This document shows, piece by piece, positions 53,596-56,742 of a DNA stretch of 64,000 bases. Numbering within the stretch: position 1 is the stretch's first letter; each line of letters opens with the position of its first letter. The translations under genes and the position numbers were made by a program. The stretch is taken from positions 248,001 to 312,000 of the forward strand of contig JAMAHW010000030.1 of the NCBI GenBank assembly GCA_023627715.1, read 5' to 3'. Under the pieces are notes generated by a model. That model saw nothing but the letters and a program-made list of their open reading frames with translations. It searched no databases and was not told where the DNA came from. Origin of the DNA: Periconia sp. R9002 (Eukaryota > Ascomycota > Dothideomycetes > Pleosporales > Periconiaceae).

Positions 53596-56107
53596 ATGTC
53601 TACCAAAAGTGCCGAGTCACGCGATAATTCACCAAGTGGGCCCGAGGGCTCCTCGGAGAAGCGCTTGAGTAAGAAGCGGAAGGTGTTGTCCTGTTATGCG
53701 TGTCGCAGTCGAAAGATGAAATGCGACCGCGTTTTTCCTGTTTGCGGTCGATGCCAAAAGACAGGAAGAGCGGATCAGTGTACTTATGATCCAAGATTGA
53801 TCGAAGAAGTACCGGCAACTGGTGACGGGCACGTGGATAACACCCCATCCTTTGGGCCATCGGACCAGACAGCGACCACCGGTTTATCGACGGAAACTTT
53901 GCAGTGGAGACTGAGACTGCAAGAACGCCGTGTGCAAGCATTGGAGAAAAAACTCTCTTCAATTGAAAATCCCAAGCAAGATCTTTCCGGCGTTTCCTCA
54001 CTACAATTTTACGACCCTTCGCAAGAAGAGCCTCAGCTGGGCGAGGAAATAATGTTCCGAGGCAAATCCTTCAAGACCCAGTTCACTGGTACTACCAGTC
54101 ATTTAAGTGCCGCCGGCCAAGTACGTTTTCTCTCTCCACATTCACATTCATTGACGGTCCGAGCTAATAATACATTAGTTTCCTGAGTTGCAAGCCTTTA
54201 CCAGACAGGCCTTAGCTACGGAGGGAAGTAATATGCATCGGGTACAACACGACTTCAAAGCCTTCAGAGAACGGAAAAAGATACTTCGCCAGGGCCAGCC
54301 GAGTATTACGAGTGACTTAGACGCTGAAATATTTGGCCTATTGCCCGAGAAGACGATTGTTGACCAGCAAATGACTCAGTACTTTCGGGCTTGGGAGACT
54401 TCATATCGCATACTCCACGAACCAACTTTTTGGAAAGATTATCAAAAATTTTGGGAAAGGTCCTCCAACGACCAATTTGCAACGATGTTCGCGGTCATGA
54501 TTCTCTACATTGGAGCTATCACGAAATGCGACACTCCTAATGATATGAATGTCTTTGTAGGGGACAGCTCTGCAGACCGCGATGATGCTTCTAACATAGT
54601 GGCCTCCTGCGATACATGGCTGGCGCTTCAGCCTCGGAAACGATTCACCCTCGCTTTCTTCCAACTTCAATGTCTGTCTGTTCTCGCCAAACGGGTGAAT
54701 TGCCTTAGACTTAAACAAGACTGGGTCAGCACAGGGGAGGTCATGCGTCTTGCTTTGGCGACCGGTTTGCATCGCAACCCATCCTTGATAGCATGCGGAA
54801 GGATATCTGAGTACGAGAAGGAAATGCGAAGAAGACTGTGGGTAACAATTGCCGAACTGGAGGTACAATCCTCCATCGACAGTGGCCTGCAATCATCTTT
54901 ATGTGGTCTTTACTTCGATGCACAACCTCCTGCGAATTTACCAGATGATGTATTCTCACCCGATATGTCTCAAATACCTGCCGGTCGCCCCACAGAGCAT
55001 TTCACATCTGCGTCTTATCTCAGCATCACTTTGAAATCTCTACCTCTTCGTGTCCATCTACTACAACTCCTGAATAACCCTACCAACAACCTGCAGTACT
55101 CGGATGTACTGCATTACGATAGCCAGATTGCTTCGTTCCTGTCATCTATACCTACCTGGGAAGACTTGCGGTCTTTGATTGCTTCGACATTGTTAAGCCT
55201 TCAATTGAGACAATTCTTGCTGATTCTGCACCGTCCGTACGCCAGACTTGCCTCGAAACACCAGCAGTATAGTTACTCTATGACAGTTTGTGTGGACGCC
55301 TCAAGTGCTATAATTGCAGCTTACGAGACTCTGATCTCGAAAGGTCTCCTAGCACTCAACCATGGCCGGAATGATATACTGAGGGCTGGTATCACACTTT
55401 CTCAAGTTGTGTATTACAACTGCGTCGTCCAGACAAATCCTCATCCAGATTCAGAATCGCCTGAATCAAATCGGCCACCTCATGCGATGGATCTTGGTAG
55501 CGCAGCTATGGGCAAAGTGCCATTCCAGTCCAAGATCGAAGTGAGAATTCCCCACCTTCCCAAGCACAATCACTTTGCGACAATCCTTTGCACCACCGCC
55601 CTGGAACTTTTAGATAAAGTACGTGACCTTTTCGAAGCCAAACTTCTCCGCCTAGGAACTGGATATGTTGAATATTGGCTGCTTTGTGCGGCGATTGCTT
55701 TCATGCCTTCCTCCAACCGAACAAGGGCACCTGAGGTTTCCAGTGCAGAAAACGAGTCGGAAGATATTCGTGTGCGCTCTCGCAATGCAATGGAACGTGT
55801 TGTATCGCTCTGTTTTCGTATTCTCGCATTACAAAAAGATCCACAGAATGGATTTGCGACTGCATTGCGCAGTTCCGTAATAACGCCCTCACCTTCCGAG
55901 CCAACATCCGCAGCAACAACGAGCTACGCACCTGCAAATAGCAGCTCGATAATTTCAAACATTCCAGGAGCTTCGGGCATAGCTGCAGCGATGGCTGACG
56001 AGCAAATTCCTGCTACTTTCTTCAACAATCTACAAGAGGTGCCGTTCGATCCTTCAGGATGGGAGTTTACAAACTTTTGGGATTTCGATATGGACGGGAT
56101 GTATTAA
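53596..56107 (+). CDS. Zn2Cys6 fungal transcription factor with a Fungal_trans middle domain
   Basis: Predicted nuclear regulator of 817 residues. Two exons: 53596-54120 and 54179-56107; the 58-bp intron has a GTACGT donor. The binuclear cluster is complete: Cys33, 36, 43, 50, 53 and 62 (CYACRSRKMKCDRVFPVCGRC, spacing 2-6-6-2-8). It is preceded by a basic KRLSKKRK stretch. A short coiled coil follows (about 100-122, LQWRLRLQERRVQALEKKL). The middle domain (about 225-520) shows the family's YFRAWETSYRILHEPTFWKDY start and a MRLALATGLHRNPS segment. A Ser/Ala-rich C-terminus ends in an acidic WDFDMDGMY. It is 3.2 kb from the GH7 gene; a regulatory link is only a guess. Confidence 0.9.
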
Positions 56108-56228: not shown

Positions 56229-56742
56229 TTATTTGTGCACCCCTGTTTGGTTATGCGCATTCTTCAAGCCAGAACAGTCTGTGCAGTTGGTGCAGCTACA
56301 CAATACTGTCAGGTCTTGCATTTCGTTCGCTCACGAGGAACTTACTTTATACAATCGACACAATCGGTACAATTCTGGCACCCTTCGCACCCCGTACAGT
56401 CCGTACCTAAACGTGTGCAGTCAGCTTTCCACCAAAAACACCACAAGAACCTCGCGGCCCTTGACACTCAATCTTACAATTTTCGCATGCGGAGCAAGAG
56501 TCACAGCCGGTGCAGTTCTTGCAATCCGTACAGTCTGTCGTATTACCTATTGGTGATTGCTACGTTTTTGGAGGCATGGCTTGCGGTACCTCGGCAGTTG
56601 GTGCAATTTTGGCAACCTTTAAAGACTCAGTAAACATTCCTGGCGGCTGCTTCTGGAGAAATAAACCTTTGCAATTTGTGCAATCAGTATTGTTCCCTCC
56701 CCCAGTTTTTTCTATCGCGGGCGTGGACGCGCTATTTCCCAT
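56229..56742 (-). CDS. Putative N-myristoylated Cys-every-third-residue repeat protein
   Basis: Five-exon model: 56742-56667, 56616-56590, 56534-56478, 56406-56346 and 56295-56229. The introns are 50, 55, 71 and 50 bp, all GT-AG, with phases closing to a 95-residue protein ending TAA at 56229. The N-terminus MGNSASTPAIEK fits an N-myristoylation site (Gly2, Ser6). From Cys21 to Cys81 there is Cys at exactly every third residue, 21 times without a break: DCTNCKGCQNC early, DCKNCTGCDSCSAC in the middle, DCVDCINCTNCTDC late. The tail is SGLKNAHNQTGVHK. Alternative sites (acceptor 56547/56546, donor 56451/56450) also keep the frame but insert GNTT and KIECQGPRG-type breaks. I do not recognise the family. 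A metal-binding or beta-solenoid fold is inference. It converges with the Zn2Cys6 gene. Confidence 0.7.

Follow-up and report, generated by a model that had tools for sequence, protein, structure and literature searches.

A Cys-x-x repeat gene of Periconia sp. R9002 and its fungal family: a 12-residue superperiod and a probable cysteine-core beta-solenoid

Structure of the Cys-x-x repeat gene

The window is a stretch of 64,000 nucleotides from the contig JAMAHW010000030.1 of the ascomycete Periconia sp. R9002. It contains a five-exon gene whose predicted product has a cysteine at every third residue (a Cys-x-x repeat). In the parse of the raw sequence, this gene lies on the minus strand and runs from 56742 down to 56229. 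The first-pass annotation, made from the sequence alone, had proposed five exons and four GT-AG introns of 50–71 bp without stating the strand; the parse agrees and gives introns of 50, 55, 71, and 50 bp. The ATG at 56742 is the first in frame downstream of a stop, with A at -3 and G at +4, and the TAA ends at 56229. The features are as follows.

56667..56742, minus strand: exon 1 (predicted), 76 nt, with the start codon, MGNSAS and the first Cys triplets
56617..56666, minus strand: intron 1 (predicted), 50 bp, GT-AG
56590..56616, minus strand: exon 2 (predicted), 27 nt
56535..56589, minus strand: intron 2 (predicted), 55 bp, GT-AG, with a second, nearer acceptor (TAG, 12 nt upstream)
56478..56534, minus strand: exon 3 (predicted), 57 nt
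56407..56477, minus strand: intron 3 (predicted), 71 bp, GTAAG...TTTAG, with CTGAC near the 3' end
56346..56406, minus strand: exon 4 (predicted), 61 nt
56296..56345, minus strand: intron 4 (predicted), 50 bp, GTAAGT...TGTAG, with CTGAC near the 3' end
56229..56295, minus strand: exon 5 (predicted), 67 nt, with the stop codon
56268..56682, minus strand: 21 Cys-x-x triplets, introns included, as five 12-residue units and one triplet
56725..56742, minus strand: MGNSAS N-terminus, myristoylation-like
56229..56273, minus strand: conserved C-terminal segment SGLKNAHNQTGVHK and stop, compared with relatives

The five joined predicted exons encode 95 amino acids, MGNSAS...SGLKNAHNQTGVHK. The raw sequence bears out the earlier claim of 21 triplets: the cysteines are at residues 21, 24 ... 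81, and each spacing is exactly 3. The first residue past the cysteine is most often T (9), followed by K, Q, S and E (2 each) and R, D, V and I (1 each). The second is N (8), D (6), G (5), S (1) or A (1). The unbroken run rests on the choice of acceptor in intron 2, because the nearer TAG inserts four residues (GNTT) and disrupts the Cys register. The distal CAG acceptor keeps both the triplet period and the 12-residue period described below. The CTGAC of introns 3 and 4 resembles the branch-site consensus.

As a chance control, the identical intron-permitting parse was run from 2,282 ATGs on both strands of the window. The locus scores 43.5 and the best start elsewhere 8.5, which agrees with the earlier view that a periodicity kept across four splice junctions is hard to obtain by chance. 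The top ten starts are all within or just upstream of the locus. On sequence grounds, the control scan and the independent relatives in the databases support the locus as a real gene. That it is no gene and that its introns were chosen to fit draws on the ambiguous acceptor of intron 2, but has next to no probability against that scan and those relatives.

Relatives and conserved ends

In a protein search, the spliced product matches a protein of Diaporthe australafricana (E 6.4e-11, 44% identity over 78%). Further relatives from profile searches are D. citri, Phaeosphaeria sp., Teratosphaeriaceae sp. (two proteins), Friedmanniomyces simplex, F. endolithicus, Lophiotrema nucula, Alternaria alternata and many proteins of unnamed source. 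In all, the searches returned 136 proteins, some of which are given below by their P numbers. The repeat closes with CxxCSGL in 9/9 named fungal models, and C75, N77, C78, C81, L84, N89 and V93 are invariant among ten chosen sequences. The named fungal relatives hold the triplet register.

By inspection, P0001, P0018, P0019 and P0021 contain intron-like read-through stretches within the repeat, and the first triplets of P0022 are apparently read in another frame. Apparent intron read-through of this kind in database models lets such genes go unseen.

Neither Pfam (searched up to E 10) nor NCBIfam (up to E 1) has a match to the window protein. No Pfam family is matched up to E 0.1 by P0074, P0076, P0078, P0080, P0082, P0099 or P0128, and the Pfam matches of P0001, P0002 and P0106 are at chance level only, under the cut-offs. 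No description of the fungal family was found in the open-licence literature, among the matches listed. The locus belongs to a real fungal family that is absent from the family libraries searched. Within its own genome (42.9 Mb, 267 contigs), the gene appears single in a search that ignored introns and could miss diverged paralogues. The sole non-self match (E 0.047) lies in a low-complexity Lys/Asp/Gly repeat of contig C150 and was rejected as a paralogue.

A 12-residue superperiod and substitutions at the triplet positions

In the window protein and several relatives, a period of four triplets (12 residues) overlies the Cys triplets. When the window protein is written four triplets per line, column 3 always ends in N and column 4 always begins with C-T. 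Permutation testing of residue likeness at every triplet lag puts the best lag at 4 or 8 in 15 of 16 eukaryote-type proteins (the exception is D. citri), with mean z of 2.22 and 2.07 at lags 4 and 8 and at most 0.13 at every other lag; the eukaryote list was compiled after the pattern was noticed, only the window protein and four others of the 16 bear fungal names, and some are close relatives. The list held 20 proteins, from which the length and Cys filter removed P0020, P0022, P0074 and P0128; P0022 and P0074 were covered by the single-protein tests.

In those tests, in which seven periods were tried per protein, the window protein has p 0.020 at period 4. The values are lower for Alternaria (0.0002), P0021 (0.0004), D. 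australafricana and F. simplex (0.001 each), P0076 (0.0014), Lophiotrema (0.0016) and P0080 (0.0038). Period 4 is not significant in D. citri, Phaeosphaeria, F. endolithicus or P0087. The period of the window gene does not reflect a recent duplication, since its 36-nt units are only 50 to 69% identical.

Cysteine occupies 12/18 triplet positions in D. australafricana (two intact segments), 10/15 in F. simplex, 13/22 in Alternaria, 8/13 in D. citri, 15/17 in Lophiotrema and 7/9 in F. endolithicus. The longest intact stretch of P0021 has cysteine at 22/22. In the six named relatives, the remaining triplet positions hold L, M, V or S. Cysteine is absent from all 230 non-triplet positions in eight segments, including that of the window protein.

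These substitutions follow a parity rule. In the six named relatives, large residues (L/M/V) are on even steps in 15/15 cases and small residues (S) on odd steps in 14/14. Taken alone, Alternaria has an exact probability of 0.005 for this pattern, and D. australafricana, over 14 steps, one of 0.04; these probabilities must not be multiplied, because the proteins are related. With four steps per turn, the parity rule would confine large residues to two sides of a narrow core that face each other.

N-terminus and partner motifs

The first-pass annotation took the MGNSAS start as a sign of membrane anchoring. This stands for the window protein as far as sequence criteria go: it has an MGxxx[ST] start, and the genome encodes an N-myristoyltransferase (E 9.1e-75; 14 control genomes gave no match). 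It does not extend to the family. Of the 136 returned proteins, 6 have MGxxxS: P0020, P0048 and P0106 begin with it, and P0021, P0031 and P0082 carry it at an internal methionine; P0082 alone of the six has a named fungal source. An anchor is not a family trait: the motif is missing from the Diaporthe, Friedmanniomyces and Teratosphaeriaceae models, which have other starts. PPxY motifs occur in P0002, P0020, P0078, P0082 and P0099, but not in the window protein, and suggest possible WW-domain partners for these relatives. The PPxY listed for P0020 is inside an intron-like stretch, and a second is in its tail.

Comparison with known systems

The closest likeness is to the beetle antifreeze protein TmAFP (PDB 1ezg/1l1i; PF02420), which has a 12-residue turn, an inward residue every third position, core cysteines and a similar size (an 84-residue chain, against 95 amino acids). 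The available text of PMC8038014 describes TmAFP as a beetle haemolymph protein with a C-S-C-A core, C2-C8 disulfides and TCT ice-binding ranks. The pattern published there, a repeat of 12 residues in which each third position is of inward type, is seen in the window protein. Unlike TmAFP, it has up to four cysteines per turn and a conserved GL-x-N tail, and its units read N-C-T in 5/5 instead of T-C-T, so that TCT ranks are not present. The PF02420 profile does not match the window protein in the Pfam search up to E 10 and gives E 3.3 only, far under the cut-off, for P0002; P0117 bears a precomputed PF02420 label. According to the available part of PMC8038014 (2021), no fungal antifreeze protein has been identified with the 12-residue in-out-out turn. 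Disulfide caps are described for fungal ice-nucleating solenoids in the available part of PMC13288671.

The beta-helix of RP2 / tubulin cofactor C (2bx6, 5cya) is not among the four PDB sequence matches of the window protein. Fungal metallothioneins are likewise small and Cys-rich but have other Cys spacing, and the window protein has no family match to them. Bacillus heterocycloanthracin-type precursors have the Cys-Xaa-Xaa repeat unit in common; the available text of Haft 2009 (PMC2674419) describes them as precursors of bacterial bacteriocins, with leader peptides and accompanying modification enzymes.

Proposed fold and alternatives

The best reading, to which a probability of about 60% is given, is that the gene represents an undescribed fungal family of intracellular cysteine-core beta-solenoids with a 12-residue turn, perhaps membrane-anchored in some members. 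The window protein is small and probably intracellular; no signal peptide is seen in it by eye. Each turn of the narrow beta-helix would take 12 residues and point every third one inward, which would give the window protein about five turns of four inward cysteines. The cysteines may be chiefly a small, semi-hydrophobic core filler, and the GL-x-N tail would cap the last turn. Less firmly, N-myristoylation (with palmitoylation where the start is MGC) may tether the rod to a membrane in MGxxxS members, and the N/D/T/G/K-rich faces of such a rod might bind partners. On a right-handed beta-helix fold, AlphaFold2 gives one confident model, for a relative rather than for the window protein. A three-residue-per-step solenoid was among the earlier suggestions and gains support by inference from the 12-residue period and the in-out-out pattern. 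Overall, the earlier interpretation is partly supported; the superperiod and the resemblance to the turn of the beetle antifreeze protein are new.

Several points weigh against this reading. A second AlphaFold2 model failed, and the available text of PMC11795689 reports a bias of AlphaFold2 toward solenoids for near-perfect repeats. The lag signal is weak among other proteins: of 117, 94 passed the filter, and 28/94 are best at lag 4, with a mean z of 0.44. The parity rule is broken by P0031, P0096 and P0087, each of which places a small residue at an even step.

The earlier suggestion of a thiol-dense metal or redox scaffold is weakened, although it fares best among the alternatives and is no more than unlikely. 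Here, the four inward cysteines per turn would provide stacked tetrathiolate sites to bind Zn, Cu(I) or Fe-S, making the protein a metallothionein-like store, possibly membrane-tethered. The four cysteines per inferred turn and the complete series of inward cysteines (21/21 in the window protein, 22/22 in the P0021 stretch) are in its favour. However, the named relatives hold the register yet exchange cysteine for L, M, V or S at the same triplet positions, and the lack of any Pfam match includes metallothionein. Metal binding is possible but not favoured. A bolder form is a long shot: a reduced, membrane-tethered beta-helix whose internal thiol column (four per turn, about five turns) would hold metal ions or iron-sulfur clusters, with the L/M/S-core relatives as an emptied form.

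Rather improbable, too, is a disordered low-complexity protein for which AlphaFold2 would draw a solenoid only because the repeat is near-perfect. The published bias and the failed second model would fit this explanation, but the superperiod, the parity-restricted core substitutions in diverged relatives and the conserved ends argue for structure. A beetle-like beta-helix filled with disulfides, which would be oxidised under stress or within a compartment, shares the 12-residue in-out grammar. It is very improbable given the apparent lack of a signal peptide and, assuming four steps per turn, the lack of facing Cys pairs in turns 2 and 3 of D. australafricana. A thiazole/oxazole-modified peptide precursor, after the Bacillus bacteriocins with their Cys-Xaa-Xaa repeats, is hardly credible for a protein with a conserved non-Cys tail in a genome where a six-frame search for YcaO (PF02624) gave 0 matches (the control was positive in 5/14 genomes).

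Cys-x-x repeats elsewhere and the neighbouring gene

Phage and metagenome Cys-x-x proteins, among them phrog_15341 (listed as of unknown function), have similar Cys-x-[DNG]-type triplets, and some have DxNGNxNC starts and C-x-GL ends; they differ in flanking domains. The phrog_15341 profile matches the window protein at residues 20-88 (E 4.8e-9), but this gives no proof of homology because the match is inside the Cys repeat. Match scores in general need caution, since repeats so simple inflate them. The Cys-x-x proteins of viral contigs and metagenomes may be either kin or convergent.

Among the matches listed, at least seven distinct triplets in the longest run are found in 46/120 viral-contig frames (37/111 loci) and 4/112 genome-contig frames (4/108 loci); the remaining extracted frames are mostly simple-repeat-like, and 18 loci have a stop inside the match. 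On these figures, a wide bacterial spread is not claimed. With P0010 as the query, tblastn found nothing in phage records, and the related-locus search of viral contigs confirmed no relative. A BFVD fold search (E <= 0.001) gave two matches, listed as a Mimiviridae 'TNFR-Cys' protein and a Campylobacter phage 'Caib/baif' protein.

In the viral-contig loci L018 and L086, DENGN[IV][DN]C precedes the repeat and resembles the start of the Diaporthe proteins. P0121 and P0102 end in a Cys-x-x repeat that comes after a U-box domain (E 6.5e-20 and 7.3e-13, respectively). P0075, P0076, P0080, P0084, P0087 and P0098 have the repeat with a related GL end and an Arg/Ser-rich N-terminus that is mitochondrial presequence-like by eye.

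Next to the Cys-x-x gene, Zn2Cys6 and Fungal_trans frames on the plus strand (53596-56107) are probably one transcription-factor gene. The two genes are convergent, with 121 bp between their stops, and were judged unrelated.

Implications

The window protein and its relatives would show the 12-residue in-out-out turn in a setting other than antifreeze. The viral-contig and metagenome proteins, two of them joined to a U-box, hint at a wider unnamed class. If the proposed fold is true, the natural series in which core cysteine gives way to Leu, Met, Val or Ser would be a test of the role of thiols inside a beta-helix, and fungi would possess a family of short cysteine-core solenoids whose gene models come out broken or misframed.
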